This document shows positions 1-27,700 of a stretch of 40,776 nt of DNA, piece by piece; position 1 is the first letter of the stretch, and the number at the start of each line of letters is the position of its first letter. The notes beneath the pieces were generated by a model. The model was given only the letters and a program-made list of their open reading frames with translations, was not told where the DNA came from and did not search any database. This stretch comes from Candidatus Iainarchaeum sp. (GTDB lineage: Archaea > Iainarchaeota > Iainarchaeia > Iainarchaeales > VGJJ01), in NCBI GenBank assembly GCA_016198125.1, contig JACQJG010000008.1, positions 1-40,776 on the forward strand. Direction: 5' to 3'. The translations under genes were made by a program, and so were the position numbers.

Positions 1-162
1 AAAATTATTAATGAAAGTAAATAGCATGGTTCAAGAGCACGTTTTTATGATATTTGTCGTTTTATTGCCTTTCTGTGGTGGATTAACCTATTCTATGCAA
101 TTCTATTGTGTGGGCGGAGGCTAAAAATGCTTGCATCATTCTTGCATTGTTTCAAGGTTAGT
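1..162. other. AT-rich left edge without a recognisable gene
   Basis: The first 162 bases are AT-rich and I see no convincing gene, RNA or repeat in them. The minus-strand membrane protein gene ends at 163, so this is its downstream region. It shares the low GC of the accessory block that runs to about 4.85 kb, so it probably lies inside the same integrated element, but no element end is visible here. Confidence 0.4.
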
Positions 163-1589: not shown

Positions 1590-1669
1590 GCTTATCTTTT
1601 GAACAAAGATATTTAATAAGGTATATGGTGTGATATATCATTATGGTATTTGATTAGGATGTATCAACT

Positions 1670-1885: not shown

Positions 1886-1924
1886 CTAATGCTTCTTTAG
1901 CCTTTCATCTGCCTGGTTGATTTG

Positions 1925-3505: not shown

Positions 3506-3520
3506 ATGCGGTTCAAAGTA

Positions 3521-4774
3521 CTATTCTTGAACTTGCTTTTTATTTGCATCGTAAATAGCGACTAACTTCTCAAGGTTTTTCATCTTTTCGCTTTGATATT
3601 TTATATATTCTTCTACAACTTTCTGTCTTGCCTTCATTTCAAGCGAGAATTGGTTAAATTGGTCTTCTTTCTTTAAAACTCCTTGAATAGTGATGGCTGC
3701 TCCGCAGTTTTCGCAAAGGTCGTTTGTTCCTTGGTTTTCCTTTATGCATTGATTGCAGGTTTTTACAGTCAACGTATCTTCTATTTTTTTAATGGTGGTT
3801 TTTCCCCGCATTTCATCGACTACGGAGTCCATGTCTTGGCCGGATAAGTGAATGTAAACAGAGGCAGTTTTTGAGCCGATGACCCACCCAAACCATTGGC
3901 ATAGTTGGGCGTAGCTCATGAAGTTGGCGTAGCGCGTGGCGGTTGAGTGTCGCCAGTTGTGCGGGTTCACGGCTTTTTGGATTTTAATGCGTCTTGCGAT
4001 TTTTCCTAAGTGCATTCTGCAGGCCGTGTAATTCAACCGTTCTCCGTTGTTTTTTGAGCCAATGCCAATGAAAAGAGGGCTATCAGGTCCTTGTGTCTTT
4101 GGGTGTTTGTTGAGCCACTTGGCGATGAATGGCTTGGAGTCCACCATTTTGAGTTTTCGTGCCATGGTCTTTGAATGTTGGATGGTGACACGGTAGTAGT
4201 CTCCACAATCCTCAATGTGTTTTACATCAATGGTCAGGAGTTCTCCTATTCTGCACCCCAATTCGTTTAGCATGGAAAGTATGCACTGGTCGCGTGGGTT
4301 TTGACAGGCGTTAATCATTCGTTTGACTTCTTCTTGGGTGATAAGGCTGTCGGGGAGTTTGATGTCTTTGGTTGAAACCTTGGGTTTAATCCATTTCACA
4401 CAGTCTGGGTAGTCGTCTCCTCCGTGAAGCCATTTGAAGAATTTTCGATAGCATACCAGGTACTTGTACACAGTTAAAGGGGAAAGCGTGGAATTCCCGC
4501 GCACGGCGTACACGATTTCTTCAAGGTCTTTTCGTTCCAAGGTTAAAAACGGTTTGTCCTTGAGGCTTTCTGCAAGGCCAAGCATAACTTGAAGGTGTTT
4601 TATGATGGTTGGAAGGCACAGGCCTTCGTTCACCATGTGCTGGTGGTACTGAAAGAGTGTTTCCCTGTTCTGCGTGGAGAGCGTGCTACTCATTTTGATT
4701 TTGGATAAATACGCTTCAAGGGTTCCATGGTAGTCGTGGATGTCCAACCCGTTAAATGCCGATTTTGAAACCAT
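3521..4774 (-). CDS. Tyrosine recombinase/integrase with C-terminal zinc ribbon
   Basis: This is a site-specific recombinase of the XerC/D-like phage-integrase family, acting on DNA through a tyrosine-DNA intermediate. Counting from the ATG at 4774 (417 residues), a SAM-like core-binding domain fills about 15-115. The catalytic set is R175 (GCRIGELL), K202 (QHSKTMA), H272 and R275 (HNWRHS), W297 and Y307 (SVYIHLSG). A C4 zinc ribbon follows (C340, C343, C354, C357), then a helical tail. An in-frame TTG at 4792 exists, but a GGGGG Shine-Dalgarno-like run sits just upstream of the ATG, which I prefer. The gene begins 88 bases from the 3' end of a tRNA-Arg gene, the usual place for an integrase of an element inserted in a tRNA. 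Confidence 0.9.
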   Translation of the reverse strand: MVSKSAFNGLDIHDYHGTLEAYLSKIKMSSTLSTQNRETLFQYHQHMVNEGLCLPTIIKHLQVMLGLAESLKDKPFLTLERKDLEEIVYAVRGNSTLSPLTVYKYLVCYRKFFKWLHGGDDYPDCVKWIKPKVSTKDIKLPDSLITQEEVKRMINACQNPRDQCILSMLNELGCRIGELLTIDVKHIEDCGDYYRVTIQHSKTMARKLKMVDSKPFIAKWLNKHPKTQGPDSPLFIGIGSKNNGERLNYTACRMHLGKIARRIKIQKAVNPHNWRHSTATRYANFMSYAQLCQWFGWVIGSKTASVYIHLSGQDMDSVVDEMRGKTTIKKIEDTLTVKTCNQCIKENQGTNDLCENCGAAITIQGVLKKEDQFNQFSLEMKARQKVVEEYIKYQSEKMKNLEKLVAIYDANKKQVQE

Positions 4775-4820
4775 TCTTTTGCCCCCTTTCAAAAGGGCTT
4801 CAAAGAGGGTTATGCTTGCC

Positions 4821-10699: not shown

Positions 10700-12316
10700 T
10701 TAAAACAATCTTTTTGCAGGGGTTTGAGGGGTGGGGGAATTTGGGGTGATTGGAACGCCCGGTTGAGGAAGGGGCGATTCAACAACGCTTTGGCTGAGGG
10801 TTTCACGTAATTCCAAGCGATAAGTCTTTCGTCCGGAAATCGTTACCCCACAGTCCTTTCCACTGATAATATTCAACCGCGTGTCCACTTTCTGAACAAG
10901 CTTAAAAGACAGGTCTATTTCATGGTCGGCTCCCAGCATAAACCCCACATCCGAGTTGTCAGTAGCATCCAGCAATTCAATGATTTCGCGTGTAAGCGTG
11001 CTGGACTTGCTCGCGCCCACCATGCGCGCAGCCTCTGGAATTACGAGGAATGTGCGCACCTTTCCTGAAACGCCTTGGCGCTTGTAATATTCCAGGAGCC
11101 CTTTTGTCAGGGAGTGAGTTACCATGAGCGCAGTACGTTCGTCCAAATTTTTTAGGGGAACAATGCTTGCGCGTCCAATGGACTTGAACCAGTTCTTTGA
11201 AATTTCATCCAGGTTGTTGTGGCCTCCAAAAAGTCCGGGATAGGACACGTCCAAAAGCGAAAGCATGCGTACAACCTTGTTCAAGTAGAATGCTGAAAAG
11301 TTGGGGGTTGCTTCCATGCGTTTCACAATGCCAACGAGTTCCTGGAGATTGGCAGCCTGGTTTTCTTTCAGCAAGGCCTCAATAAAGGTCTGAATTTCAA
11401 CTCCTCCAATGCCCAGGGCCTCTGTAAGCCCTTTTGGGTTTACCAAAGAAAGGTCTATTTTTAATTGGTCAGGGGCCGTGAATTCTTTGTATGGAAATCC
11501 AATGGGTTCAATGTCGATTCCCTGGCCTTGAAGGGTTGCCGTGTTCTTGGTCGGCGTACCCATGTGCGTGAACGTGTTGTCCCAGTCCAGTATCACGCAG
11601 GGAATGTTTGAAAGCAATGCGCCTTCTATGAGGACTTGAAAGGCATGCAACCGGTCTTCTTTTTTGCTACCCAAAACAAGAGAGCGTTTAAACAATTGAA
11701 TGGGTTCTTTTACCAACGCATGGTCCTGCGTGAGGCCCAACATGATTTCAGTTGCACTGGAAATGTTTGACCCTTGGGGCTGGACTTGTACGCTTTCTCC
11801 AAGGCCTTGCATGTTGATTCCAGTGGGGGAAGACGTTGCAAGCGCGGCCACGCTCAAGGGGTGGGAAAAAAATGCAAACCGGACAGCTTCAGGCACGTCA
11901 CTCAGTACAGACAATTCCACATCATAGGCCTTGCTTACCTCGCGCAGCAATCTAGCCCCAACTTCCATGTTCTTCCATGCTTTTTCAAATGCGTCCAGCA
12001 CTCCCTGTTCTTCCCATTCCACATACGATGGGCTTGAGCCCACTACAAGAAAACGCATGGTTTCATTCTTCTGGTGTTTCACGAGCACGATGACATCACG
12101 GGGGAGCGTTTCAATAAACGCGTTCAAATCCGCTTTGGAGTAAAAGACTTTGTACACTTCCATAACCGCGCCTTTTGGAATATTATTGTCCATTTCATAG
12201 GCCAGCATGAGCAAAGCCTTTTCAGGATTCGAGTACAACTCAATAGGAGTACCTTGTACGCTGCCCTGGAAAACCCTGGACCAAGGACCTTCGCTTATTT
12301 TGAACAATTCCACCAT
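10700..12316 (-). CDS. HerA-like ATPase homologue with degenerate P-loop
   Basis: This 538-residue protein has the outline of archaeal HerA/FtsK-type ATPases but not the catalytic sequence. An N-terminal alpha/beta domain (1-180) precedes the core. The Walker A position (about 213-223) reads VLGSKKEDRLH instead of GxxGxGKS/T. The next strand, SNIPCVILDWDN, matches the HerA pattern. The Walker B position (about 423-429) reads FLVIPEA, with Pro-Glu-Ala where Asp-Glu-Ala is usual. The C-terminus is a proline-rich tail. From memory, a family with the same decayed P-loop occurs in other DPANN archaea; I could not check this. It probably works as a structural or regulatory partner rather than a motor. 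Flanked by coiled-coil genes; promoter TATA near 12347-12355. Confidence 0.75.
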   Translation of the reverse strand: MVELFKISEGPWSRVFQGSVQGTPIELYSNPEKALLMLAYEMDNNIPKGAVMEVYKVFYSKADLNAFIETLPRDVIVLVKHQKNETMRFLVVGSSPSYVEWEEQGVLDAFEKAWKNMEVGARLLREVSKAYDVELSVLSDVPEAVRFAFFSHPLSVAALATSSPTGINMQGLGESVQVQPQGSNISSATEIMLGLTQDHALVKEPIQLFKRSLVLGSKKEDRLHAFQVLIEGALLSNIPCVILDWDNTFTHMGTPTKNTATLQGQGIDIEPIGFPYKEFTAPDQLKIDLSLVNPKGLTEALGIGGVEIQTFIEALLKENQAANLQELVGIVKRMEATPNFSAFYLNKVVRMLSLLDVSYPGLFGGHNNLDEISKNWFKSIGRASIVPLKNLDERTALMVTHSLTKGLLEYYKRQGVSGKVRTFLVIPEAARMVGASKSSTLTREIIELLDATDNSDVGFMLGADHEIDLSFKLVQKVDTRLNIISGKDCGVTISGRKTYRLELRETLSQSVVESPLPQPGVPITPNSPTPQTPAKRLF

Positions 12317-13023: not shown

Positions 13024-13434
13024 TTACTTGATTCCAAAAAACTTTTTGAACAATTCAATGAAATTCTTTGCCCCCTGGCCTGATTTTTCACGCAAGTGCG
13101 GGGTGCGCCACTTGTAGTTTTCCAGTTCATTAATGTTCTTGTACGGCGCCGGGAACAGGGCTTCTCCTGTTTTTTTTCCTGCTTCCTCGGCAAACAGTCC
13201 AAACACCCCTTTGGGGTAAGGCCCTTGGGCTTTTTCCATGGCATCAAAATCTTCTTGAGCGCCTTTGGAAATTTTATCCGCAAAACGCCCATATCCTTGC
13301 GAAGCAACCTGGCCTGAACGTGCGATCAACGCAACGATCACTATAATGCCCAAGATAACAGCCCAAAAGATTTGATTGGTTTGGATGAGGGCCAGTGCAA
13401 CGATCATGAGGAGCAAGACCCAGGACGCGCGCAT
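13024..13434 (-). CDS. Small membrane protein with C-terminal cytoplasmic domain
   Basis: This 136-residue protein has two adjacent hydrophobic segments (about 4-19 and 22-38) and then a polar, aromatic-rich domain of about 95 residues without further membrane spans (AEEAGKKTGEALFP, KNFIELFKKFFGIK). Its ATG overlaps the previous gene's stop (TGATG), so the two are translated together. It is the last gene of the small-membrane-protein group at 13.0-14.9 kb, and the only member with a substantial soluble domain. No family recognised. Confidence 0.7.
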   Translation of the reverse strand: MRASWVLLLMIVALALIQTNQIFWAVILGIIVIVALIARSGQVASQGYGRFADKISKGAQEDFDAMEKAQGPYPKGVFGLFAEEAGKKTGEALFPAPYKNINELENYKWRTPHLREKSGQGAKNFIELFKKFFGIK

Positions 13435-13790
13435 CAGTGCATGCCCCCCACAAACCCTCCACCCCCGCCCCCATACGGGTCCATTCCTCCCAATCCTGCC
13501 ATGAGTTCTGGAGGCAAACCCCCACCAGCAGGAGGCTCTGGTTCGGTTTTGATTCCAATGGCCAGTGCAAGAATGACCATGCCAAACACGATGAATGGAA
13601 AGTAATCTGAGAACGCAGGGCCTTTAACCGCATACAATACTCCGGTTGCAAGCAGGAGCAGCAAAATGCCGCTGAGCGAGCGCAGGGTCAAAAACATTAT
13701 ACCTAAAACGCCCAACACCAGCCAGGTTTCATTGAATTGAACGGCAAACGCAAGCACTACCACTGAAACCAAAAACGTGAACGTGTCCAT
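13434..13790 (-). CDS. Small multi-pass membrane protein with Gly-rich tail
   Basis: This 118-residue protein has about four hydrophobic segments between 5 and 80 and a short C-terminal tail extremely rich in glycine, proline and methionine (PEPPAGGGLPPELM, then a run of six glycines). The start is 15 bases after the preceding stop, with a GAGGAAG Shine-Dalgarno-like stretch in the gap. It overlaps the next gene by one base. It forms an operon with the genes on either side. No family recognised. Confidence 0.7.
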   Translation of the reverse strand: MDTFTFLVSVVVLAFAVQFNETWLVLGVLGIMFLTLRSLSGILLLLLATGVLYAVKGPAFSDYFPFIVFGMVILALAIGIKTEPEPPAGGGLPPELMAGLGGMDPYGGGGGGFVGGMH

Positions 13791-13805
13791 GTGCGCTTCC
13801 TCTCA

Positions 13806-14060
13806 TCATTTTACTTCTTTGAATACATTGACCTTGGCAAAAATCTCTTTTCCAAACGTGGCCAAAAAGAACAGCGCAACGCCAAACCAAAGGAGTTCAG
13901 GGTGATTGTACACGGTAAGGAAGACAATGACAATGGCAAACAAGATGGCCATGCGCGCGTTCCCCATGCTTCCCTTGGCCCAACTGTACACCCAGATTAA
14001 TACGAACAGCGTGAGCGCAATGCGAATGTCATTCCAAAGCGTCTGCAATAGGATGTCCAT
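13806..14060 (-). CDS. Very small membrane protein (84 aa)
   Basis: An 84-residue protein with three hydrophobic segments (about 12-28, 36-52 and 55-70) separated by short loops, and a lysine-rich C-terminus. It is the first gene of a three-gene operon: minus-strand GTTTTAACAG (14081-14090) is centred about 26 bases upstream of the ATG, so the mRNA should be leaderless. No family recognised; the pattern of TM pairs and length resembles its four neighbours more than any known protein. Confidence 0.65.
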   Translation of the reverse strand: MDILLQTLWNDIRIALTLFVLIWVYSWAKGSMGNARMAILFAIVIVFLTVYNHPELLWFGVALFFLATFGKEIFAKVNVFKEVK

Positions 14061-14131
14061 GCAATAAACCTTCCACTACACTGTTAAAACAGGAAACCCC
14101 TATTTAAGCCTACACGGGTTTCAATCCGCCC

Positions 14132-14458
14132 TTAATGCCCATGCGGCCGGAAGAACTGCCCCGCGCCAAACACAATAATGCTTCCCAGTCCCACGCCCAA
14201 TGCAGTGATAAGCAGCCACACGGAAAACGAAAGCGTGGAATACTTTAACACCAAAAAGTACACCAATACCACGGTAAAAAGAATGCTTAATGCCCCAGGC
14301 CCTACAAACCCGCGTACAAGCATGTAAACCGTGAAAATAAGGAATATTTTAATGAGCAGGTCTGCTTGTGGCACTAGCGCAACCACCAGCCAGGGCAACA
14401 CTAAGATAAGGGCAAATGCAATGCCGACAATCAACAGCAGGTTTCCTTTTTCATTCAT
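14132..14458 (-). CDS. Small four-TM membrane protein
   Basis: About 108 residues with four hydrophobic segments (near 6-29, 33-46, 52-70 and 78-100) and almost no soluble part, ending in FRPHGH. A GTG at 14467 is in frame, but AAGGTGA lies just upstream of the ATG at 14458, which I take as the start. It is co-transcribed with the 137-codon reading frame upstream; only a few bases separate them. No family recognised. Second of the five small membrane proteins in transcription order. Confidence 0.65.
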   Translation of the reverse strand: MNEKGNLLLIVGIAFALILVLPWLVVALVPQADLLIKIFLIFTVYMLVRGFVGPGALSILFTVVLVYFLVLKYSTLSFSVWLLITALGVGLGSIIVFGAGQFFRPHGH

Positions 14459-14468
14459 GGCTTTCACC

Positions 14469-14870
14469 TTACCGTCCCCGCGGAGGATGGCGTATAAAAC
14501 GCTGCTGGGCCTGGTGGAGCATGTGCTGGCGCTCCTTCAACTCCATGGAATGCGCGCCCTCTTCTTCTTCCATTCCTGGAGCAGGCTGGCGCTGAAACGC
14601 CCCGGTAAAAAACAAGTCAACTAAAATGCCCCCAAACCCGAACATCAGCAGAATGTACAATCCATAAATGGGCAAAAACAACCGCCACAAGTCAAACAAC
14701 AAAAAGTATGCAAAGAGCGCCATGACAATGAGTTTGAGGTTCGGATTCTCAATGTGGTTGTTCACAAAACTGATGATGGTGAGCAGTACAAAAATCTTCA
14801 AAATAAGGTTTACGTCCGAGAGAAAATCCCAAAGCCCCAATAAAACGGTGAACGCATTCCATGCAAGCAT
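14469..14870 (-). CDS. Small membrane protein with charged C-terminal tail
   Basis: A protein of 133 residues with three to four hydrophobic segments before about residue 95, followed by a charged, Gln/His/Arg-rich tail (MEEEEGAHSMELKERQ...). An upstream in-frame ATG exists at 14882, but the TATA box at 14893-14900 (TATTTAAA on the minus strand) is only 14 bases from it; the ATG at 14870 falls exactly where a leaderless transcript would begin, so I use that. First gene of its operon. No family recognised. Confidence 0.65.
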   Translation of the reverse strand: MLAWNAFTVLLGLWDFLSDVNLILKIFVLLTIISFVNNHIENPNLKLIVMALFAYFLLFDLWRLFLPIYGLYILLMFGFGGILVDLFFTGAFQRQPAPGMEEEEGAHSMELKERQHMLHQAQQRFIRHPPRGR

Positions 14871-14892
14871 GAGTGTATGCATGCATTTCCCC

Positions 14893-14998: not shown

Positions 14999-15256
14999 TT
15001 ATTCGAATGGCCGGCTGAAGACGTGGTCCCGATGGTCCAGGTAAACAAAAGTCACATGGTCGGCGGTAAACCGGTAAATGACCCTGTACTTTCCAATGCG
15101 TTCTGAGAAGTAGTTTTGCATGGGGGCGTTCAAGGGTTTTCCAAGTTCTGGTCGTCCCATTATTTTTTCCATTCTTTTGAGAACCATTCCGCTGGTAGAC
15201 TGGTCCAGTTTTTTCAGCTGCTTGTCAAAAGTCGGCTTGGTTGAAAAGGACCGCAT
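14999..15256 (-). CDS. RelE/ParE-superfamily toxin
   Basis: This 85-residue protein fits the RelE/ParE toxin fold: an N-terminal strand (FSTKPTFDKQLKKL), two helices, then GKYRVIYRF and TFVYLDHRDHVF, the beta strands that carry the basic catalytic residues in RelE-type mRNA interferases. Several of those residues (R, Y, H, R) are present. Its ATG follows the antitoxin stop directly (TGAATG), so translation is coupled. Whether it cleaves ribosome-bound mRNA as RelE does, or acts otherwise as ParE does, cannot be told from sequence. Confidence 0.85.
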   Translation of the reverse strand: MRSFSTKPTFDKQLKKLDQSTSGMVLKRMEKIMGRPELGKPLNAPMQNYFSERIGKYRVIYRFTADHVTFVYLDHRDHVFSRPFE

Positions 15257-15448
15257 TCAAACGCCCATTTCCTTTGCATAGGCTTTCAGGTTTTTGTGCA
15301 TGCGGGTTGGTTCCTGCAGGGCCTTCCAGAACTCTGGTTTTGAAAACAGTTCCAAGTCTTCAAGGTATGTTTCCAGTTCGCCTTTCAAGCGTCTGGCCTC
15401 GTTTTGCATGGCCACCATTGTTTTGGAGTACATGTTTTGCTTTGGCAT
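15257..15448 (-). CDS. Antitoxin of the RelE-like toxin
   Basis: A 63-residue, highly charged, helical protein encoded directly upstream of the RelE-like toxin with no gap. The size, position and helical character (EARRLKGELETYLEDLELF) fit an antitoxin that wraps the toxin; it has no obvious DNA-binding domain of the ribbon-helix-helix type, so autoregulation is uncertain. A TATA box (GTTTAAAT on the minus strand, 15471-15478) lies about 26 bases before the ATG, so the operon mRNA is probably leaderless. Confidence 0.75.
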   Translation of the reverse strand: MPKQNMYSKTMVAMQNEARRLKGELETYLEDLELFSKPEFWKALQEPTRMHKNLKAYAKEMGV

Positions 15449-15499: not shown

Positions 15500-15874
15500 T
15501 CACGCCTCAATCATCTTGCTCATGTCCACTTTGCGCAGTTCAATGATTAATTCCCCATCGGCCTTGCCTTTCAGGAGTTGCCCGCTGACCCCTGTGAAAC
15601 CCGTGCGGGAAGCGAGTACGCGTACATTTACAACAAACTCTCCTTGCGCGCGCTGAATCTTTCCATGCATGGCATTCAATTCGCACGCATCCTTGAAATA
15701 GTTTGTTTCCACTCTTCCATTGGGCGCATGGGAAACAAGCTGAAATTCTTTTAACCGCCCGGACGCATTTTCAACAAACGCATACGTTATGCGCTGCTCG
15801 CTTACAAGCTTGCGCAATTCCTCCAGCACATCCGCGTTGTCGGTTAACTTTAAAATGAACGTGTTGCCTGCCAT
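15500..15874 (-). CDS. PPC/DUF296-domain protein
   Basis: About 124 residues forming one PPC (plants and prokaryotes conserved, DUF296) domain, the fold found in AT-hook DNA-binding proteins of plants and in many prokaryotic proteins of unclear role. The start has FILKLTDNADVLEELRKL and the end GVSGQLLKGKADGELIIELR, which match the first strand/helix and the last strands of the fold. The HxH metal-binding set of some bacterial members is absent. The longer open frame starts at 16006, but GGTGG before the ATG at 15874 and the domain boundary favour the shorter form. It probably forms trimers, as the family does. Confidence 0.75.
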   Translation of the reverse strand: MAGNTFILKLTDNADVLEELRKLVSEQRITYAFVENASGRLKEFQLVSHAPNGRVETNYFKDACELNAMHGKIQRAQGEFVVNVRVLASRTGFTGVSGQLLKGKADGELIIELRKVDMSKMIEA

Positions 15875-16048
15875 TAATCCACCCCAGTGCAAAATGATTT
15901 GTGCAAATGGTTTAAAAGAACAGGTTTTCAAAGGAAGCGCATTTAAAAACAAAAACGGGTTATGTTGAAGTTCGCAAGTAATTGGCTTACTGCGGGTCGA
16001 AGCCACTGCAATACCTTGGGCTCGTAGCAGTCAGTTGAAATGGTTTTT

Positions 16049-16114: not shown

Positions 16115-19100
16115 CTAGATGCAGGATTTTCCTGCTTCAAGTGCCTCTGTTTCCGCGTGAATGCTTGTCTTGGCGGTCTGCTTGTAAATGGTTTGGGGGT
16201 TCCAAAAGAAGCGCACGTGCACGCCGCTGTCTGAAATGCACACCTGCTTGTTGGCCACCAAATCAAACACGTCCTGCAGGGAGTCTACCTGCGTGCTGAA
16301 ACTGTTGTACGTCATCGTGCTAATGCCCTGCAAAGACACTAACTGGGCATAATTTGCTGAATCCGGGGTCAAAAAATGCAGGTACGCAGATTCTCCCTGG
16401 AGGCTGGCGCTTGAAGTGGGAGGCGAATAAATGACGGTGCGCAGGTACGCGTTTCCCTTCTTCGTGGCCTGCTGCCAGTCCACTCCATACAAGTACTCGT
16501 AATTGTTGATTTGGTCGTTGGGCGTTGCCTCGCGGTCAGGCGTTTGATTGAACGCCTGGGTTATTGGAACACCGTCAAAGTTGTTGCACACCCCAGCACC
16601 ATCCCAGTATGTAAACGTGCTTCCGGTTTCAACAGGAATGCCGCCTTCCAAGGCATAATAAAACGCGCTGAAAGGGTCTTTGGTAATGTCATGCGATACC
16701 CTGGCCATTACAGGCGTGGCAAGCGATGGCGAGAACACAAGTTTCTTTTCATTGTTGGCGCCAGCGTCTGCGCTGACTTCCAGTAAGTTTCCGCGCGTGG
16801 AAGGAATGGAATTGAGCTTGCGCAAATCCGATACAACTTCCGTTTGCACGTTCACAAGCGGGGTTGAGTTTGTGCTCGTCCATGTTTTTGCAAGCGTGTC
16901 ATCAAGCTTGATTTCATTGTCCTCATTGGAAAACCCAACTCCATAGCCAATGCGTTCAAGTGTAGACCCCTTCAACCCCACGTTCCCATTTAAAGGCAAA
17001 TTGTAAAAAGGCGAGTTTGGCACGGCATCATCAATGTGGTAGAACACCACGCTGATAAGCGCGTTAACCCCTTTGCCTGCAGTGAACAAATTCCACGTGT
17101 CGTTGAAATAAATTTCCAAGTCCACCCTGTACTTTCCGGCGGCCGGAAGCGTGGGGCTGTTCACGTATTTCTGCGTGAACAACAGGTTCTGGTCTGGGCC
17201 GTAATAGGATGAAAACATTTCAGTGCCCGCCAAATTATAATACCAGGTTGGAGTGTCTGCAAAAGCCACTTTCGTGTAATACTCCCTGAAATCGTTTTCA
17301 AAGTCCACGCTGTACCCATCGTGGATGAGCCGTGCATCAAAGTGCAGGAGATCATCCAATGCTTTTACGTTGGGCACGCCAGGGGGCCATGCAATGCTGG
17401 TGTCAGTTACTTTGCTTCCAAACACAGGGTCTGTGGGGTCAATCCACTGGTTGATTCCATACGCGCCTGCATAAAAGGCCGTGGTAAGAGGAGACTTGCA
17501 CGTTGAATTCCCTGAATTATCTTCCACGCTTTGATTTGAGAATATAATATGGGTTGCCCCGGTGTTTACAGCGCTTGTGGTATCAGAGTCAAGGCTCAGC
17601 CCAATGTCATACGCGGCTGGAACGCTAAGGCCTGAGAACGTGCATGAAAGGGTTGTACTGGTATTGGCATCCACGCTTCCTTCCTTGGTGCAGGGCCCTG
17701 GAACACTGGCTCCGCTGGTTTGCGCGGAAAGAGACGCGTTCAACGCAACAGACTGGGTTGAAGGCGTATTGTTTTGAATGACTGCATTAAACGTTACTGC
17801 CGAAGGTCCTGTGAACTGGTAGGATATTTCCTGCATGCCCAGGGTGTCAGGCGCCACGGAAAAGGACGTGCTTCCACTGCCTGCCCCGCTGGCAGCACTT
17901 GAAGGGCATGAAAAGGCGTGGTCGTTGGCGGCAAGGAACTCATTGAAAAGCTGCAGGCGTTTCATCAGCATGATGTTGAATTGGGTTGCGTCGCAGTATA
18001 TTGCATCAGGGTTTTTTGCGTCGCATGAATTCCATTGAATGCCGCTTTCTTCTTTCCAACTCCAGTTGAACGCAACCCGGGGAAGCGCGCCTTCTCCTGC
18101 TTTTCCAAGCAGGGCGCCGCTTGCGCACGCAATCGTGTCAAACGATGTAGGCGGAATGGATTGTGCGGGTTCCTGTGTTTTGAACATGGCATGGAATTTC
18201 TCGTTGCGCGTGGTAATCTCTTCCCCGCAGCTCTCTCCAATATTGTAGGGCCCAAAGTCTGAACCCTCGCAGGTTGCCTGGGCCTGACCGCTGTGCGTGG
18301 GGTCTCCGTGAATATGTTCTTTCGCGGTAAGCGTTACCACTCCATACAGGGGCGTGGGGTCTGCGTAATCCGTTTTTTTGTTGAACACAAGTCCAACGAA
18401 TTGAAGGGCGTTGTTTTGCGTGCCTTCAGCGGCTGCCCCCTGGTTGACAGAAATATTGGCCACATCCGTGTTCCATTTTCCCCCAACGTGGTTTTTCACG
18501 TTGTTGGATAACCCTACAGAAATTGCATCCACCGGCAATGACTCCTTTTTCTGGCCGCCTGCAAGATTGATAATATAATCCGGAAGCGTTCGGGTGTAGG
18601 TTTCCAGGCACGGGTCCTCAGAATCACCCAAGAGAAAGTATACAATTATTCCAACGCCCAATCCAATCAACCAGCACGCCGGGCACCATGAGGTCGTGGT
18701 CGTGAGCGCAATAAAAGCGCCTTTTCCGGCAAGCAGGGACGCAATCCCCCCCACAGCAACGCCTGCCGCAGTCCCAATGGCCGCATTTTCAAGCGTGTCA
18801 TCCTCTGCCATGGCCTCGCCCCAATCACATACACTGGCAGTGACTTCCACGGCTTCTGTGAACAGCGCATTGGTTACCGTGGTAGAATCCGAATCGTCTT
18901 TCTTGTACAACGTGAATTCATACCGGTCCCAGGAAAACGCGTACTTTTTGGGGTCCGGAGGCACCATGGTTTTAATCAACGCAATTTGGTGGAAGGAGGT
19001 TCCAGGGGCTTTGGCTCTAACTGTAATCCCATACACTCCTGGGAGCGTGCTGCCTTCGCGTGAAACCTTTACTTTTTTGGATTCTTTTTTGACGTTGTTC

Positions 19101-22100
19101 AACGTCCACTGGTCCAGGAAAAGCTTGCCCTCCGGAGCGCCTCCGGAACAGTTTCCATTCCCTGCTTCCCCGCAAAACTCAAAAGAGATTGGAATGTCTC
19201 CGCACTCGCTTGTATCCACCGTGAATTCTGCTTCGCCCTGCTCAATGCTCAACTCCAAAGGCTTCTCCTGAGAAGGAGTGAATTTCACGCATTGTTCAAG
19301 GTTGGTAATAAGAATGCTGGCATCAAATGAATCAAAGGATTTCTTTGCTTCCCCGGGTTTGCCAGGAAGCTCTGCAGACAATGTGACTTCAAATGCGGCC
19401 GTCTTTCCCAGGTTTCCCGTAAGCGGAGTGAATGTAATGACTGCCTCATAGGCTCCATCGGAAACTGGTTTGGCCTGGTCAAACAACAGGACTTCCTGGT
19501 TGTGCAACAATACTTGCGTGGTTGAAACCCCGCTTTCCAAGTCTGTCAGTGTTAATTCCACTTGGCCGATGGCATCGCCTTTCCATTCAAGTTCGGCCGT
19601 AAGGTTTTGCAGTGCCACTTCCTTTCCAGCCACCTCGCACGTGTTTGAAAGTGAAAATTGGTCAACGGCTTTGTTGTCAAAGGTGGAGGATTCCCATTTT
19701 CCATTGGTGCCAGCGCCTGCGAGTTCAATGCCTCCTTCATCGCATTGATCGGCCAACCCAATGCTTACATGCATGGGAAGGGTTTGAACCCATGTTTGAT
19801 TGAACGCACTGCTTTTGAATGAAAAACTCAGCGTTCCCGCAAGCGTTTCCTCGTCAATAAAAGGGGCGCCGCTTGCAGTAGCGGCTTTTACCTGAATGAG
19901 CTGGGTTTCGCCTTTTGCAATGAACAAAACGTTCTTGTACTGGTTCACGTAATTCTGCATCCCCGTCAAGGCCAGTTTTCCCTGGAACAATCCAAGGATT
20001 TGAATGTCCGTTAACGTCAAATCCGTTTCAAGCTTGTTGCTTATTTTCAGGGTCACAAAGTCTTCGCTTGCACTGGTATTGTTCAACGTAAAATTCAAGG
20101 CCTTGGGGTCGAATGACACTACATTGGAATCCACCACAATTTCAAAGGGTATCGCGGTAAACCCTTCTTTTTGCGCGTCCAGCACAAGCTTTGTTCCAGG
20201 CGTGCTTGCAGGCGCTGTAAAAGACGCTTTTCCACTGGAATTCGTGTACTTTTCTTCAAGGAGTGTCGTGACCTTATCTGTTGTGATTTTTGTCATGGAC
20301 GCCAATGCATTGCCCACTTCAAATCCTTCCTGGTCTTTCACGCTCAACTCCAAGGGGGTTGGAATCAGCGCGCCCACCGTGGAAGGATTCACGCTCAATG
20401 AAAGTTCATTCTTGGATGCCACGCTGAATGGAATGGTCTTCTCAAACACGATCACTCCATTGTTAATCACTTCAACGTGCAGTCCAGCCGCTCCCACCTT
20501 TTTGGGTTCAACCTCAAAAGTGGCTTGCACGGTTTTGAAGGGGGACAGGTTTCCCAATGGGATTCCAGTTCCAGGGGTTTCAGGGATTTCATACGCATTT
20601 AAATTGTTTCCCTCCACGGGCTGGCCGTCCGCATTCTTTATGGAATAAGATTTGAATGCAAGGCTTTCATCTTGAATGGGCCCGCTTGCACTGCTTTTCA
20701 CGCGCAACTGGGCGTTGGAGAAAATGGTGGGCGAGTTGTTGGTAAAGGAAAAGCTTACCGTGTAGGAGCCGCTCACGCTTACAGGGTAGGGGGAATCGTT
20801 GAGGAGAAGTTGCTGGGTTTGGTCGAACACGTTTTCTCCGGCATAGCAAAATGTTTCTTCACAGGTTTCAGCCTGGCCTGAAAAAAACACTTTTTCCAGG
20901 GTTTCCGCGTACAAGGCATGCTTGCTGGAAGTGGACTCAGCAATTCCAAGCTGTGCATCCAGCGGGGTGCGCGCCCATTCCCCGTTTGAAAGCACGCCCC
21001 ACGCACGGTAATACAATGGAATTTTTGCGCCCAATGCGGCTTCACTGCGCACTTTTATTTCCTGTTCAATCATCAGCGTTTGCGCAGGCGTTTGAGTGTA
21101 CAGGGCTTCCGCCCATTTTGCATCTCCTAACGTGATGTTTCCCAGGTCTTGGACGCTTCCCGTGGGAGGATTATACGTTCCTCCTTTTTGAATGCCTGCC
21201 CATGGCGCATTCAATGCATTAACATATACACTATCATTTTCCACCAGGGATTGAGTGCCTGTGCGTACATGGACCCCCAATGGATTGAATGAAATTCCCT
21301 CTGGAATGCGCACCCTGTACAGGGCTTTGGCGCTTGAACCTGCTTTGAGTTCGCCTAAGGGCTTGTCTTTCAAGTCAAAAAGCCCTATAAAAATAATTTC
21401 AGGGGCATTGCCTGTGAAGGGCTTTTCAAGTACGGCATTCAATGTAAACGTTTGACTGGGGTACAATTGCCTGGAAGGCGTGAGCAGGGAAGAATACCCC
21501 TCTGCGCTTACGCGTGCAAACACTTTGCGGTCGGCTTTGAATGTTTTATCCGCGTTTCCGGCGTTGTCTGCAGGAATCATGCACGCGTTTGCAGGGCATT
21601 CGGGTGAATTCTCAGTCAAAAACTCCACTTTTGCAAACGGAATGGGGGCATTGTCTTTATCTGTGACTTTCACTTTTACACTGCTTTCCCCGATTTGCAG
21701 GGACACGTTGAAAAAGGCCTGCTCGGCCTTCTTTGTTTCAACGGTGACACTTTTTCCAGGAGAAGAAGGGAATTTGTACGCCTGAACGTAGTAAGACCCG
21801 TCCTGAATGCCATTAAAAACAGCGGTTCCATTGGCGTCTGTGAATTTTTCAGGGATTTCATAGACAATGAACCCTGTTTTGGAGTCAAAGAAAACAATCT
21901 TTGCATTCTCCACAGGCAGTTCATCTTCATCCGCCACTTTTACAAGCGCCTTGCCGCTGTTTTGGGATGAAATCTTTTCCAGTTCAAAGTCAAACGACGC
22001 GTTTGCGCTTACCATTCCAGCGTCCTTGGACTGGGACAGGTATTCTGCGTGCACCACTACGATTTTATACGGCCCTGGTTCCTGGACTGCAAACGAAACG

Positions 22101-23203
22101 CCTTCACCACCCGAACTGGTTGTTTTTTGGCTGACTTCCTTGTTGTCGGATATTTGAACAAGTTTCACGGTTGCATTTGCAATGGCGTTCCCGCTGACCT
22201 TGTCTTTAACGTTCACAGAGAGCACGCCTTTCACGGATTTTGAAAGCGTGAGTTCTACATTTGTAATCGTGTCTGCTTCCACTTCCACAGCGTCTGAGGA
22301 AATTTCCGCGTAGTCCTGTGCAGGGTCTGAAACGCTTGCATAATATTCTCCCACATCCAGCGAGTCAAAAGTGGCTTGCCCATACACATTGGAAGCCTTG
22401 GTTTTGACTTTTCCCCCGGTTGTGGAAAAAACGGATATTTCCATTCCTTCCAAGGCGTTTCCTTCTTCATCAAGTGCCTTGACTTTTAACGTGCCTTTTG
22501 GAATTTGAAGGGCCGTCAATTCAATGGTGTTCGTGCTTCCCGAGAGTGGAATGCCTTCCTTGGACGCAAAACCAAGGGCATTCGCGTTGGCCAGCAGCAC
22601 GCCACATGTCGCGGGCACGCTGACCTTAACAATTCCATTGGACGTTTGAGTAGTAGTTGGGTTGGGGCTCACGCCTGCATTCTGGCATGAAAACTGAACG
22701 CTTACATTTACTCCATCCAGGCTCTGGCTGTTTTTTCCAATCAATTGAATGGTGCGCTCAAACGATTCAGGAATTACAGATTCCAGTTGAATGGAATACA
22801 ATGCGTTTGGACTTGAGACGTTGAAAGACTCCTCGAAAACCTCAAACCCTTCCCGTTCAACACGCACATTTAATGTACTGCTCACGGGCACGTTTTTTAC
22901 AACGGCCTTGCCGTCTGCATTGGAGGTCGCGCTTACATTTTTGCCTGAAAAAGCCACCTGGACTTGCACGCCTTCCAAGGGAGTGCCGCTTGCATCTGCA
23001 ACCGTGAAAGTTACCTGCGTGTTTTGCGGGATCAGGTTGAGCGTGAATGCGCCCCACAAAAGGATTCCCGCTAAGAGGACAATGAGAAGCGGAAAGCTGG
23101 GCACGATTTTGTCAATTGCGCTTACCACGCCTGTGGCGTGCACGCGGTCTGCAAATGAATAGTACGCGTCCTCTGCTCGTTGGTATAAGTCCTTTAAACC
23201 CAT
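16115..23203 (-). CDS. Giant N-anchored surface protein 1 (2362 aa)
   Basis: This is a type II-anchored surface protein. A charged N-terminus shared with giant protein 3 (LKDLY, ED-YY-F-D, VPSF) precedes one TM at about 36-56. Six transthyretin/carboxypeptidase-regulatory-like beta domains follow (about 61-140, 145-230, 236-322, 326-412, 418-503 and 507-593), a seventh at about 955-1045, and other beta-rich regions. C1459 and C1532 bracket a Gly/Ala-rich hydrophobic insert containing WCPACW. A cysteine block with IYCDATQF lies at about 1713-1750, and the C-terminus carries F-F-W-N-P. No signal-peptidase site or C-terminal anchor is seen. TATA (TATTTAAA) is at 23255-23262, with GGGTGA just before the ATG. 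Its partner or ligand is unknown; adhesion or contact with other cells is a guess. Confidence 0.85.
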   Translation of the reverse strand: MGLKDLYQRAEDAYYSFADRVHATGVVSAIDKIVPSFPLLIVLLAGILLWGAFTLNLIPQNTQVTFTVADASGTPLEGVQVQVAFSGKNVSATSNADGKAVVKNVPVSSTLNVRVEREGFEVFEESFNVSSPNALYSIQLESVIPESFERTIQLIGKNSQSLDGVNVSVQFSCQNAGVSPNPTTTQTSNGIVKVSVPATCGVLLANANALGFASKEGIPLSGSTNTIELTALQIPKGTLKVKALDEEGNALEGMEISVFSTTGGKVKTKASNVYGQATFDSLDVGEYYASVSDPAQDYAEISSDAVEVEADTITNVELTLSKSVKGVLSVNVKDKVSGNAIANATVKLVQISDNKEVSQKTTSSGGEGVSFAVQEPGPYKIVVVHAEYLSQSKDAGMVSANASFDFELEKISSQNSGKALVKVADEDELPVENAKIVFFDSKTGFIVYEIPEKFTDANGTAVFNGIQDGSYYVQAYKFPSSPGKSVTVETKKAEQAFFNVSLQIGESSVKVKVTDKDNAPIPFAKVEFLTENSPECPANACMIPADNAGNADKTFKADRKVFARVSAEGYSSLLTPSRQLYPSQTFTLNAVLEKPFTGNAPEIIFIGLFDLKDKPLGELKAGSSAKALYRVRIPEGISFNPLGVHVRTGTQSLVENDSVYVNALNAPWAGIQKGGTYNPPTGSVQDLGNITLGDAKWAEALYTQTPAQTLMIEQEIKVRSEAALGAKIPLYYRAWGVLSNGEWARTPLDAQLGIAESTSSKHALYAETLEKVFFSGQAETCEETFCYAGENVFDQTQQLLLNDSPYPVSVSGSYTVSFSFTNNSPTIFSNAQLRVKSSASGPIQDESLAFKSYSIKNADGQPVEGNNLNAYEIPETPGTGIPLGNLSPFKTVQATFEVEPKKVGAAGLHVEVINNGVIVFEKTIPFSVASKNELSLSVNPSTVGALIPTPLELSVKDQEGFEVGNALASMTKITTDKVTTLLEEKYTNSSGKASFTAPASTPGTKLVLDAQKEGFTAIPFEIVVDSNVVSFDPKALNFTLNNTSASEDFVTLKISNKLETDLTLTDIQILGLFQGKLALTGMQNYVNQYKNVLFIAKGETQLIQVKAATASGAPFIDEETLAGTLSFSFKSSAFNQTWVQTLPMHVSIGLADQCDEGGIELAGAGTNGKWESSTFDNKAVDQFSLSNTCEVAGKEVALQNLTAELEWKGDAIGQVELTLTDLESGVSTTQVLLHNQEVLLFDQAKPVSDGAYEAVITFTPLTGNLGKTAAFEVTLSAELPGKPGEAKKSFDSFDASILITNLEQCVKFTPSQEKPLELSIEQGEAEFTVDTSECGDIPISFEFCGEAGNGNCSGGAPEGKLFLDQWTLNNVKKESKKVKVSREGSTLPGVYGITVRAKAPGTSFHQIALIKTMVPPDPKKYAFSWDRYEFTLYKKDDSDSTTVTNALFTEAVEVTASVCDWGEAMAEDDTLENAAIGTAAGVAVGGIASLLAGKGAFIALTTTTSWCPACWLIGLGVGIIVYFLLGDSEDPCLETYTRTLPDYIINLAGGQKKESLPVDAISVGLSNNVKNHVGGKWNTDVANISVNQGAAAEGTQNNALQFVGLVFNKKTDYADPTPLYGVVTLTAKEHIHGDPTHSGQAQATCEGSDFGPYNIGESCGEEITTRNEKFHAMFKTQEPAQSIPPTSFDTIACASGALLGKAGEGALPRVAFNWSWKEESGIQWNSCDAKNPDAIYCDATQFNIMLMKRLQLFNEFLAANDHAFSCPSSAASGAGSGSTSFSVAPDTLGMQEISYQFTGPSAVTFNAVIQNNTPSTQSVALNASLSAQTSGASVPGPCTKEGSVDANTSTTLSCTFSGLSVPAAYDIGLSLDSDTTSAVNTGATHIIFSNQSVEDNSGNSTCKSPLTTAFYAGAYGINQWIDPTDPVFGSKVTDTSIAWPPGVPNVKALDDLLHFDARLIHDGYSVDFENDFREYYTKVAFADTPTWYYNLAGTEMFSSYYGPDQNLLFTQKYVNSPTLPAAGKYRVDLEIYFNDTWNLFTAGKGVNALISVVFYHIDDAVPNSPFYNLPLNGNVGLKGSTLERIGYGVGFSNEDNEIKLDDTLAKTWTSTNSTPLVNVQTEVVSDLRKLNSIPSTRGNLLEVSADAGANNEKKLVFSPSLATPVMARVSHDITKDPFSAFYYALEGGIPVETGSTFTYWDGAGVCNNFDGVPITQAFNQTPDREATPNDQINNYEYLYGVDWQQATKKGNAYLRTVIYSPPTSSASLQGESAYLHFLTPDSANYAQLVSLQGISTMTYNSFSTQVDSLQDVFDLVANKQVCISDSGVHVRFFWNPQTIYKQTAKTSIHAETEALEAGKSCI
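17957..18075 (-). repeat. 119-bp near-identical block shared with giant gene 2
   Basis: This segment matches 26612-26730 at 113 of 119 positions by eye, including synonymous sites, while flanking DNA of the two genes is clearly diverged. It encodes the NWSWKEES...IYCDATQFNIML block. It looks like recent gene conversion between the paralogues, or unusually strong constraint. Confidence 0.8.
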
Positions 23204-23397: not shown

Positions 23398-24078
23398 TCA
23401 TGCCATTTCAAGCACGGCCTGCTGGTGTTTTTCAAAAACCTTTTCGTCAATGTGCCCGTACACTCCTTGGAGTCCGTCCTTGAACGATTTTGACGACACT
23501 TTTTCTTTCACGCGTTCAAACCGGTTCCTCAAATCGCATCGGATTGAAATTTCGTTTTGAACCCATTTTTTATCCTTCAGGTTTGGGGCGAGCATGAAAA
23601 TGTCGCGGATGTCCGTTGAACGGGCGCTGATAAACTTCATGACAAACAGCGCGTCAAGGTCAATGATTCGGATCGTTAACTCTTCCATAATGGTTTTCCC
23701 CTTCAACAACCTCATTTTTGAATGGTCAAAAATCCAATCGAAGGCAAACACCATGCCTGTTTGCCGGTCTAAAACGCCGCCTATGAGAATGTCCATGCTG
23801 ACGTTAAAATGGTTTTCCAGTTCTTTTTCAAACCGTTCAAAGTTGGCATAAGGGGAAGGCGTTTTTGGAATTTCTTTGCGCGAATACCCGCGTTCTGCCA
23901 AAAAAGAACCCACTGCACGGGCCTTGCTTTTGTCTTGGACAGCCACGTCGCAGTCCACGGAGAAACGCGGAAGGGTATAGGCGTTCACGGCATACCCTCC
24001 AATAACCACAAATGAATGGCCTTTAAGGGCGCGAAGCGTTTCAAATATTTCCTTTTCCCTAATCTGCAACGCGTCCAT
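23398..24078 (-). CDS. abiEii-like: AbiEii-like nucleotidyltransferase toxin
   Basis: This 226-residue protein belongs to the nucleotidyltransferase superfamily. GGYAVNAY (27-34) is the NTP-binding turn and D42/D44 in SVDCDV are the metal-binding carboxylates; D96 (SMDILIGG) is a candidate third. In type IV toxin-antitoxin systems such AbiEii proteins block growth, and related toxins of this class modify tRNA. It starts inside the end of the AbiEi-like gene (20-base overlap), the standard two-gene order with the antitoxin first. The pair sits between two giant paralogues, which suggests insertion into, or stabilisation of, that locus. Confidence 0.82.
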   Translation of the reverse strand: MDALQIREKEIFETLRALKGHSFVVIGGYAVNAYTLPRFSVDCDVAVQDKSKARAVGSFLAERGYSRKEIPKTPSPYANFERFEKELENHFNVSMDILIGGVLDRQTGMVFAFDWIFDHSKMRLLKGKTIMEELTIRIIDLDALFVMKFISARSTDIRDIFMLAPNLKDKKWVQNEISIRCDLRNRFERVKEKVSSKSFKDGLQGVYGHIDEKVFEKHQQAVLEMA

Positions 24079-24661
24079 ATTTTTTCCTCATGTAGCGGTA
24101 GGCGTAGGAGTAAATGTCATTGGACCGGGCGTGTTTCATGGCCTCTTTTAAGCCTTCCACTTTAAACCCCTGTTTTTCAATGGCCTTCACGTTTTTCACG
24201 GGAATAAAAATGACATATTCTCCAACCGTGGAACCTTTGTCCACATAGTTGGGTATGCCCCGCCGGTTGAAAAAGTTTTTCCAGTACGCCAAATCTTTTT
24301 TCAACACTTTAATAAAATAGGGGGATTTTTCAATTCCACGCTGAACATATGCAAAATCCGACCAAATTTCAATTGCGGACAAACCGGTGAATGCATATTC
24401 TTTTTTTGCTTCTTTCATGATTTCCGGAACCCTGAACGCCAACGCCTTGGCCACAATTTCCCCGGGCTTTACGCATACATAGGTGTTATGGGGTTGTTTT
24501 TGAATCCACCCTGAATGCACCAACAGGGAAAATATCTTTTTCCGCATGCTCGGGCCCACCATCCAATCCAATTCCGCCTGCTTGAAGCGGCCGGCCGTGC
24601 CATGTTTCAAGAACAACAAGGCGTATGCCCTAAACCCGAAAGAGGGGATCCCCATAGTCAT
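24059..24661 (-). CDS. abiEi-like: AbiEi-like antitoxin/repressor
   Basis: This 200-residue protein has an N-terminal winged helix (about 1-75, with RFKQAELDWMV and MRKKIFSLLVHSGWI) and a C-terminal alpha/beta domain with FTGLSAIEIWSDF and STVGEYVIFIP. This is the arrangement of AbiEi antitoxins, which bind promoter inverted repeats to repress their own operon while the C-terminal domain provides antitoxicity. The toxin gene overlaps its end by 20 bases. A TATA box at 24683-24691 is about 26 bases from the ATG at 24661, so the mRNA is probably leaderless, and an inverted repeat lies between them. A second ATG two codons in, at 24655, is also possible. Confidence 0.8.
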   Translation of the reverse strand: MTMGIPSFGFRAYALLFLKHGTAGRFKQAELDWMVGPSMRKKIFSLLVHSGWIQKQPHNTYVCVKPGEIVAKALAFRVPEIMKEAKKEYAFTGLSAIEIWSDFAYVQRGIEKSPYFIKVLKKDLAYWKNFFNRRGIPNYVDKGSTVGEYVIFIPVKNVKAIEKQGFKVEGLKEAMKHARSNDIYSYAYRYMRKKYGRVAD

Positions 24662-24733: not shown

Positions 24734-27700
24734 TCACCCGGTGGGCAACGGCCCCATGCACGTTTGGCCTTGAATGAACGTGGCTTCCTCCAACTCCATG
24801 CTCGTGCCTCCAATGCCTTTTTGCAGGGCTTCAGGGTTCCAAAACACTTCAAAGGCGGTGCCGTCATCAAGTACGCATGCGGATTGTTTTTTCACCATGT
24901 CAAACAGGGCTTGAACCGAAGTGACCTGCGCGCTTTCATTGTCGTGGGCCAGCCCGCTGATTCCATTCAATGCCGCTCCGGAGTTAAAGGACGCGGAATT
25001 GGGGGTGAGGAATTTTACACTGATTCCTTCATCCGCGTTGGCTTTAATGGAATGGCCTTCCTGGGGGGGCGTGTACACAACGCTTTTTACATACGCCGTT
25101 CCTTTTTGCTGGACGCTTGGAAAGCGCAGGGCATAGGAATACTCCCAGTTGTTTTTCACGTCATCCACAGTGGCAGGCGTGTCAGGCGTGTTGTGGAATG
25201 CGTTTTTCAGGAGCTGGCCGTCAAAGTTAAAACACGCCTTTCCCACCCCTTCCCAGTACGTATAATGCGCACCCGGCGCCTCCAATTCCTCTCCTTTAAA
25301 GGACATGTACGCCGCACTGAACGGCTTTTCCTCGTTGCGCGAAACCTGCATGAGCAGGGGCGTTGCAGTGGTGGGGGAAAAGGAAAGCTCGTACACCTGG
25401 TTGTTTACTGGATTTCCTTTCAATTCAAACAGCGTGCCGCGCTTGGTTGGAAGCTGGTTCAGCGATTCAAAGTCTCTTACCCATGTAGCAGTGACTGTTG
25501 ACGACAAGTCAGTTGAAGGAGACGAGAACAGTTTTACCTCATTCTTTTCGTCTATTTTGAACGAATCGCCTTTCAAGTCGAAAATGGTTCCATAGCCTTC
25601 CCGGTTCAACAGGTTTTCGTTGGTCAAGCCCACGCTTCCATCCAATGGAAAGTAATACCACAACGAATTGGGGCTTGGCAGTTTCTTGTGGGACAATGAA
25701 ACAACGATGACCGCGTTGGGCTTGTCTTCATCAAAAAAGTCCCATTTTTTCTTGTCGAATAGGATTTTTGTTTCCACTTCATACGTTCCAGGCTCGTCCA
25801 ATATTACGTTGCTGTTGAACCTGCGTTTGATTAGTATGTGCCCGTTTTCATCATAATATGCGTCAAACGAAGGCCCCCCGGCTTGATTGTAGAACCAGGT
25901 AGGGGTGTCTGCGAATGCTTTTTTCGTGTAATACTCTTTAAAGTCTTCGTGGAAATCCGGGCTGAACCCGTCTTTCATGAGTTTTGCATCAAAGTACAGC
26001 AGGTTGTTCAACGCCTTGATGTGTGGAATGTCAGGCGTCCACACCACTCCTGCCTGGGTTACATATTCGCCAAAGTCCTCGTTTTCCTTGTCAATCCAAT
26101 AATCAATGGCCGGATACCCTTTCACGATGGCCGTGCTGTAGGACTTGTCGCATTCTCCTTCGAATGCATTCTTTGCTTTTTTCATGGAAAATGACAGGGT
26201 AAACGCGGTTACGCCAGAGAAGAGGGTAGGACTGGAAGAAAGGCTTATTTGAGCCACATAGGTTCCCGGCCCCTCCAAACCAGAAAACGGGCATGAAAAT
26301 GAAAACTCTCCATTCCCGTCCACCAACGTTTCCTTTATGCACGGACTTGGAATGTTAGCTTCAGGGTTTTGGTTTTTAAGCGAAACCGCGTACAAGACTT
26401 TTTGGGTTTCACTGGTCTTGTTTTTTACATTTACGGTAATAGTGGCCGTACTTCCAGGCGAGAACCCAATGCCTGCTCCTTTCATGGCCACAGTGTTGGG
26501 AAGCACGGTGAACGTTTGCCCCCCGCCTTTTTTGAAGTCTACAGTTTCCTTGTCTTCCGGGCATGAAAACGTGTTGTCATTGGCTTCCAGAAACGCGTTG
26601 AAGAATTGCATGCGTTTCATCAACATGATGTTGAATTGGGTTGCGTCGCAGTATATTGCATTCGGGTTTTTTGCGTCGCATGAATTCCATTGAATGCCGC
26701 TTTCTTCCTTCCAACTCCAATTAAACGCAATTTTTGGCAGTACATTGGGGCCTGTGACTCCCTGCACGCCATTCTTTACGCATGCAAACCCTTCCAACGG
26801 GTTTTGGAAGTCAGGCAAGGGTTTTGTTTGCAGGCGGACGTGGAATTTTTCCACGCGCGTCACATCCTCTGCAGGAGAGCACTCTCCTTCATCGCTTTCG
26901 GGGCCAATACGGTACCGGCCAAACGTCCCAGTCTTGCATGTAACCGCCGCATCCCCGTCGTGTTCGGGGTCTCCGTGAATGTGCTCCGTGAATTTGAGCG
27001 AGGCCGTGGCATACGCTGGCATATCTGAATGCAATCCGGTTTTATTGTAAAAGCTCACCCCTGCACGCTCGCGCAATTTCTTCTTTTCCCCTTCGGCTAC
27101 ATCATGAACATTGCTTTCATTCACGTCCCAAACCGCATAAAAATCACTCTTCGCGTTGCCTGACAGCCCCACGGCAATGGCATCCGGTGGAAGTTTTTCC
27201 CTGTTCTTTCCACCGGAAAGCAGGGTAATGTAATCAGGCAGGGTGTCAGTGAACATGATGGCGCAGGGGTCAACGTCGCCTCCCCCACCTCCACCAAACA
27301 GGCTAAAAAGGAATGCGAGAATTGCGAGTATAAGACCAAACCAACCGAAAAAAACGAGCACTGCATCGGCGCTCATGCCAATGACGGCTCCAACGGCTTG
27401 AGCTGCTCCGGCAATTAATTCTGAAATCGCTGTAGGTCCAAAGCTTCCGCCAAGAACAACACTTGTAGGGGTTGTAAAACCGCCAATGGTCCCCCCGGCA
27501 AAAACATCGACTGCACTAAAAAATACCATGGTGGCATTGAATGCCACGTCTCCCCAGCCACCCTCCAAGTCCTCATCGTCCCCTGCCTCCGCGGATTTCT
27601 GCCAGCTACACAAGTCGGATGTAACCGCAATGTCTTCCAGCACGCGGCGGTTGGTTGCGCGGATTGAATCCCTTGCATTGGCACTGTACAATTGAAGGGA

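Follow-up and report, generated by a model that had tools for sequence, protein, structure and literature searches.

A cysteine-bracketed hydrophobic insert in giant surface proteins of Candidatus Diapherotrites as a possible membrane pin

Introduction

Little is known at the protein level about how DPANN archaea contact other cells or construct their surface. The stretch of DNA analysed here (40,776 nucleotides; hereafter, the window) stems from an archaeon of 0.85 Mb and encodes three very large proteins (giants 1-3), which are surface proteins of Candidatus Diapherotrites, tiny archaea belonging to the DPANN. Deep within the ectodomain of two of them, a hydrophobic insert is enclosed by two cysteine residues. 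It had been predicted from the locus that this element is a variable hydrophobic hairpin, held by a disulfide, which inserts into a membrane, acts in a fusion-like manner, or forms a tip touching another membrane. What, then, does such an insert do in the middle of a protein of this size, and which membrane, if any, does it enter?

Results

A family of giant proteins in one archaeal order

The genes for the three giants lie on the minus strand, like all features marked (−) below: giant 1 (P0001; 2362 aa) at 16115-23203 (−), giant 2 (P0002; 2391 aa) at 24734-31909 (−), and giant 3 (P0003; 2513 aa) at 31991-39532 (−). Relatives in named records belong to Candidatus Diapherotrites and related MAGs, including the complete genome GW2011_AR10. 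The family was present in 64 of 75 genomes of the order (E 0.001) and in none of the 12 from the rest of the class; it is almost universal in this one order and unnamed in Pfam and NCBIfam. Named giants of Diapherotrites were not found in the literature searched, nor did IMG/VR contain a relative of the family that would have pointed to a viral origin.

Three types of giant can be distinguished. Type A, to which giants 1 and 2 belong, contains the cysteine-bracketed insert. In type B (giant 3), hydrophobic elements related to it are present but the bracket is missing, and type C has an N-terminal anchor only, with no internal hydrophobic segment but with a C-terminal half related to that of type A. 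In several genomes (e.g., on contigs of G016, G022, G015, and G010), the genes form tandem arrays that run C, B, A. The array in the window has B and, behind it, two copies of A; a fourth giant is encoded on another contig (C3).

In giant 1, an N-terminal anchor (residues 38-55) is followed by CarboxypepD_reg/SpaA/Big_1-like domains and then by the insert-bearing domain. The N-terminal parts of all three giants matched CarboxypepD_reg, SpaA, and Big_1 above the cut-off (107.1, 53.5, and 48.4 bits for giant 1); the insert-bearing region and the C-terminal half had no match in Pfam, NCBIfam, or PDB. Cone arrestin, the sole match when PDB relatives of the insert domain were sought by profile search, scored at chance level (E 0.076) and was rejected. 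Ahead of the anchor, giants 1 and 3 contain an amphipathic-looking cytoplasmic stretch (KDLYxxxEDxYYxF...VPSF; 23045-23203 and 39380-39532, −), which is absent from giant 2.

The insert of type-A giants

The insert of giant 1 spans residues 1459-1532, and C1459 and C1532 map exactly to the ends of 18608-18829 (−). It opens with the motif CDWGEA (18812-18829, −), which comprises the N-terminal bracket cysteine and the conserved W motif, and continues with a Gly/Ala-rich segment, H1 (residues 1474-1492; 18728-18784, −). A CPAC motif in the turn (1507-1510; 18674-18685, −) leads into the strongly hydrophobic H2 (1510-1525, within a hydrophobic segment 1507-1525; 18629-18676, −), and the C-terminal bracket, ...EDPC with C1532, closes the insert (18608-18616, −). 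In giant 2, the insert extends from C1434 to C1549 (27263-27610, −) and contains three hydrophobic segments (1455-1473, 1494-1512, and 1517-1535) and no CxxC. The two segments predicted between the cysteines of giant 1, one Gly/Ala-rich and one very hydrophobic, and a hydrophobic insert at the same site of giant 2 were thus borne out. The same order of elements was observed across type A: a C-D-W-G-E-A-like motif, the Gly/Ala-rich H1, a turn, the more hydrophobic H2, and (D/E)-P-C or a similar acidic-Cys end. Eleven of the 26 short forms of type A have a CxxC, mostly CPxC, at the turn or the start of H2.

Mean GRAVY of the 26 short homologous inserts was +0.87, whereas 74-aa windows from other parts of these proteins averaged −0.32 (SD 0.26). 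On an approximate translocon scale, of which only relative differences are usable, dG was +1.8 for H1 of giant 1 and about −0.2 for the best 19-mer of its H2. H1 is generally weak on this scale in type A (usually about +1 to +4), and most short forms have an H2 below zero, the lowest at about −4. Across 52 type-A proteins, the only segments following the N-terminal anchor with a dG below 0.5 were those of the insert. As the GRAVY values differ to this extent and no comparable segment follows the anchor in any of the 52 proteins, hydrophobicity of the insert is above chance. Gly-xxx-Gly pairs were observed 162 times in type-A inserts, whereas shuffling the same segments gave 86. Charged residues are scarce in the turn of the shorter inserts (<160 aa), with 14 K/R/D/E in 394 residues versus 22.9% elsewhere in the proteins, although its low charge is partly due to the flanking windows having been picked as the most hydrophobic. 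Inside the bracket, the regions beside the hydrophobic segments are acidic, particularly after H2 (50 D/E, 3 K/R).

The flanks had been described as conserved and the insert as variable. Length and sequence of the insert do vary, but its mean pairwise identity (0.29; 0.17 when shuffled) is only moderately lower than that of the 100 aa on either side (0.34 and 0.30). Low identity and a wide range of lengths are what would be observed if the insert were a fast-evolving hydrophobic linker of no specific function, merely tolerated between two strands. Yet many families have retained its hydrophobicity, opening motif, Gly-xxx-Gly spacing, and bracket, and the insert was lost only where an intact copy is also present (see below), which renders a mere linker very improbable.

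Two conserved stretches follow the insert in type-A giants. A conserved EHxHGDxxH motif (residues 1629-1637 of giant 1), together with another conserved histidine, that of EKFH (1668-1671; 18182-18319 for both, −), looks like a metal site; type B (giant 3) appears to be without the EHxHGDxxH motif. The stretch N-S-C-D-A-K-N-P-D-A-I-Y-C-D-A-T-Q-F (1725-1742; 17978-18031, −) is among the best conserved and common to all types of giant.

Bracket cysteines and the membrane

Among the 52 type-A homologues, 46 contained both bracket cysteines, three contained neither, and three contained only one (Fisher p = 9e-4 for joint presence or absence, uncorrected for relatedness). The three with a single cysteine form one clade, in which the second one is retained, and two of the three without either are encoded on one contig. 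As most homologues have either both cysteines or neither, the predicted C1459-C1532 disulfide is supported.

We tentatively favor, at somewhat below an even chance, that type-A giants are pinned at mid-length to a membrane, most likely that of the cell itself, by a disulfide-closed Gly-zipper hairpin. An Ig-like domain in mid-protein of giants 1 and 2 would carry a helical hairpin composed of H1 and H2, with the helices packed through Gly-xxx-Gly contacts and the base closed by the C1459-C1532 disulfide. The hairpin would span the membrane, probably the cell's own, twice. With two crossings, the ∼830 residues following it would remain on the same side as the preceding ectodomain. The giant would be fixed at two points, the N-terminal anchor and the pin, and might form an arch or else the stable, membrane-proximal base of a complex, in which the three giants would be joined, perhaps, by the five small membrane proteins encoded in the operon. 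Domains inserted in the turn are tolerated.

Several observations bear on this topology. In favor of pinning, the insert occurs across the order and is, in the 52 type-A proteins, the sole transmembrane-like element besides the anchor. Type C has a related C-terminal half and no internal hydrophobic segment, which suggests that the type-A insert crosses the membrane an even number of times or never. As dG of H2 is negative in most short forms, a chain exported via Sec should stop in the cell's own membrane. The acidic regions inside the bracket are as expected for the outer side and, therefore, favor pinning. Against it stands that H1 is generally weak and that, in the long clade of type A and in type B, both elements are. 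A positive-inside signal was absent from the loop of the short forms (3 K/R in 394 residues), and counts in type B showed no bias. N-glycosylation sequons in type A were enriched before the insert (492 vs 389) and not after it (340 vs 339); because type C, which lacks the insert, likewise shows no enrichment, sequons are uninformative regarding the side.

Giant 3 and insertions into the turn

In giant 3, H1 (residues 1413-1438, with a hydrophobic segment at 1421-1439; 35219-35296, −) lacks a bracket cysteine. It is separated by a variable stretch (1439-1677; 34502-35218, −) from H2a/H2b (1678-1718; 34379-34501, −), which contains the type-B end motif (Gly-rich ... NP ... Gly-rich ... YY.Q). 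The opening motif of type B reads DWxxAMKxG, and its hydrophobic elements are Gly-rich, short, and weakly hydrophobic, with H2 following a specific, conserved pattern. Giant 3 keeps a weaker version of both predicted hairpin elements of type A. A hydrophobic region longer than in giants 1 and 2 had been predicted to follow C1400 of giant 3, and a longer hydrophobic, Gly-rich region, with segments at 1421-1439 and about 1676-1715, is indeed present at the same site. C1400 itself, in contrast, is not the homologue of C1459 and C1434: relative to the shared W motif, it is located ∼12 residues earlier and is accompanied by C1370. The pair C1400 and C1370 is typical of type B, which is without either bracket cysteine.

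The distance between the hydrophobic elements ranged from 49 to 915 aa in type B. The turn of one homologue (L044) matched FN3 (E 6.9e-6); that of another (L043) is 669 aa long and contains 68 cysteines in repeats, which had no match in Pfam. If type B is built like type A, such extracellular-looking turns conflict with a turn located in the cytoplasm. Long forms also exist within type A. In a tree built on the flanks, with the insert excluded, twelve of them form one clade (support 100/99) whose neighbors are short forms (98/99), and two further long forms are placed elsewhere; long turns, thus, arose at least twice from a background of short hairpins. The long forms kept H1 and H2 at both ends, weaker and more Gly-rich, and enclose a probably helical, Ala-rich sequence of 230-350 aa, in many cases with a cysteine cluster at its center.

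Two hydrophobic, predicted Gly-zipper helices are, therefore, conserved, and it is the turn between them that varies most. That length varies mostly between, and not within, the hydrophobic segments is the opposite of what a variable hydrophobic tip would show, and 300-900 aa of mostly soluble-looking sequence between the segments places them at the base of a projection rather than at its tip. Of the original prediction of a disulfide-held, variable hydrophobic hairpin, the parts resting on co-retention of the cysteines, conserved hydrophobicity, and the uncharged loop of the short forms stood; the variable tip did not, and a hydrophobic stretch at an exposed hairpin end is not common to all homologues, given the 85-915 aa between the segments in the long clade and type B.

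Losses of the insert and the packing of giants

Three type-A copies (L064, L087, and L068) have a short insert without a transmembrane-like segment, and a fourth (L069) has neither insert nor bracket. Each of the four shares its assembly with a further type-A copy in which the hydrophobic segments are retained. That losses occurred only beside an intact copy suggests, from few cases, that a cell cannot do without a hydrophobic copy, which would fit a shared complex. Homologues devoid of the hydrophobic insert, which had been named beforehand as speaking against a membrane-active hairpin, do exist, namely type C and these four type-A copies, but the latter all have an intact sister copy.

Such losses would also be expected if the helices packed against each other outside the membrane, between giants (A with B) or with other copies, to form the hydrophobic core of an extracellular assembly of several giants from which the inserted domains point outward. 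This is the main rival of the membrane pin because type B and the long clade of type A are weakly hydrophobic and some of the insertions look extracellular: short, Gly-rich elements and a specific H2 pattern in type B, as opposed to generic hydrophobicity, would suit a packing interface, and the Cys-rich and FN3-bearing turns suggest a location outside the cell. It accounts less well for the many short type-A forms in which H2 is of full transmembrane-like length with a dG well below zero, which would be hard to export in soluble form, and for the avoidance of such segments everywhere else in these proteins. We consider packing outside the membrane unlikely, though deserving of serious attention.

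In another reading, the hairpin would enter the membrane of a partner or host. The giant would then bridge two cells, with its anchor in its own membrane, an Ig-like stalk, and the hairpin in the other membrane. An uncharged loop between hydrophobic segments, cysteines at the base, and the frequent CxxC at the turn would fit this role, as would the mostly Ig-like stalk of ∼1,400 aa that separates the anchor from the hairpin; moreover, DPANN archaea are mostly ectosymbionts, for which membrane contact with the host has been proposed (PMC11329633). However, this would require turn domains of 300-900 aa to be moved across the target membrane and H2 to clear the cell's own translocon without stopping; a match to a fusogen family was not obtained, and there was no sign of a host for this organism. 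Insertion into a foreign membrane, therefore, appears doubtful, and clearly more so than packing among giants.

Genomic neighbors

Giant 1 is followed downstream by genes for five small multi-pass membrane proteins (13024-14882, −), homologues of which occupy the same position beside type-A giants in several other families, in conserved order. Another conserved neighbor in the cluster is a 538-aa protein (10700-12316, −), distantly HerA-like (DUF87) with a degenerate P-loop; a normal HerA-like protein is encoded elsewhere in the genome. From gene order, which links these neighbors to the giants and not to the insert, they may possibly constitute one membrane machine together. A more far-reaching version, in which C, B, and A giants in tandem, the five small membrane proteins, and the degenerate HerA-like protein would form an order-wide surface machine, with A and B hairpins crossing the membrane of a partner and the turn domains residing inside the partner or forming a conduit, seems very improbable to us.

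The remaining genes near the giants are of other kinds. Directly after giant 1, a PCC-domain protein is encoded (E 6.7e-9; 15500-16006, −), and between giant 1 and the small membrane proteins are two small ORFs which, by eye, are a putative RelE-type toxin and antitoxin (14999-15448, −). The two type-A giants are separated by what resembles an inserted toxin-antitoxin pair (23398-24661, −), consisting of an AbiEii-like nucleotidyltransferase (sub-threshold match) and a 200-aa partner. Positions 1-4800 of the window probably represent an integrated element, with a G+C content of 0.37-0.39 over 1-4000, compared with 0.47-0.52, and a phage-type integrase at 3521-4792.

Discussion

The internal hairpin is predicted to be the one membrane-active feature of this family. 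Through it, a long stalk would become fixed at two points or would reach a second membrane; the former corresponds to the pin tentatively favored here. Whichever applies, the giants show that evolution has added whole domains in the turn of a hydrophobic hairpin.

Comparison with known systems

The comparison with giant surface proteins of other DPANN and of symbiotic bacteria concerned size and lifestyle, in which they resemble the giants; nanohaloarchaea, for instance, are described as a lineage of small genomes with very large surface proteins (PMC10266531). Modular adhesins with CarboxypepD_reg, SpaA, or Big_1 repeats are similar to the N-terminal part of the giants. Such adhesins are repeat stalks, to which the giants add an internal hydrophobic hairpin and a conserved C-terminal half.

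Like the giants, the archaeal fusexin Fsx1/HAP2-GCS1 is a surface protein with a disulfide-rich β ectodomain and a hydrophobic element, and a hydrophobic, Gly-rich, disulfide-bracketed segment within an ectodomain could, in principle, be the fusion element of a true fusogen, be it fusexin-like or viral class I-like. The architecture, however, is different: Fsx1 has an ectodomain of ∼55 kD, three C-terminal transmembrane segments, and a short fusion loop in domain II (PMC9259645). HAP2-GCS1 (PF10699) had no match in the three giants at E 0.1, nor in 20 related genomes, although the control search matched nowhere either. Turn insertions and the stable, transmembrane-like length point to an anchor instead. 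The fusion-like role originally considered, thus, gained no positive evidence, and we regard it as the least credible of the readings weighed here.

The closest likeness in sequence was to glycine-zipper families, albeit below curated cut-offs throughout. The insert of giant 1 matched Gly-zipper_YMGG (PF13441; E 0.006, 16.7 bits, cut-off 28.9) and DUF543 (PF04418; E 0.011, 16.0 bits, cut-off 24.1), the family of the MICOS subunit Mic10, and that of L102 matched Romo1 (E 0.18). Glycine zippers are recognized by Gly-xxx-Gly spacing in two adjacent hydrophobic segments, which is present in type-A inserts. PF13441, Mic10, and Romo1, like the insert as predicted here, consist of two Gly-rich hydrophobic helices arranged in a hairpin. 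The known families, however, are small, free-standing proteins or domains, whereas in the giants, the hairpin would be inserted into an Ig-like domain of a 2,300-aa surface protein, bracketed by a probable disulfide, and with further domains accommodated in its turn.
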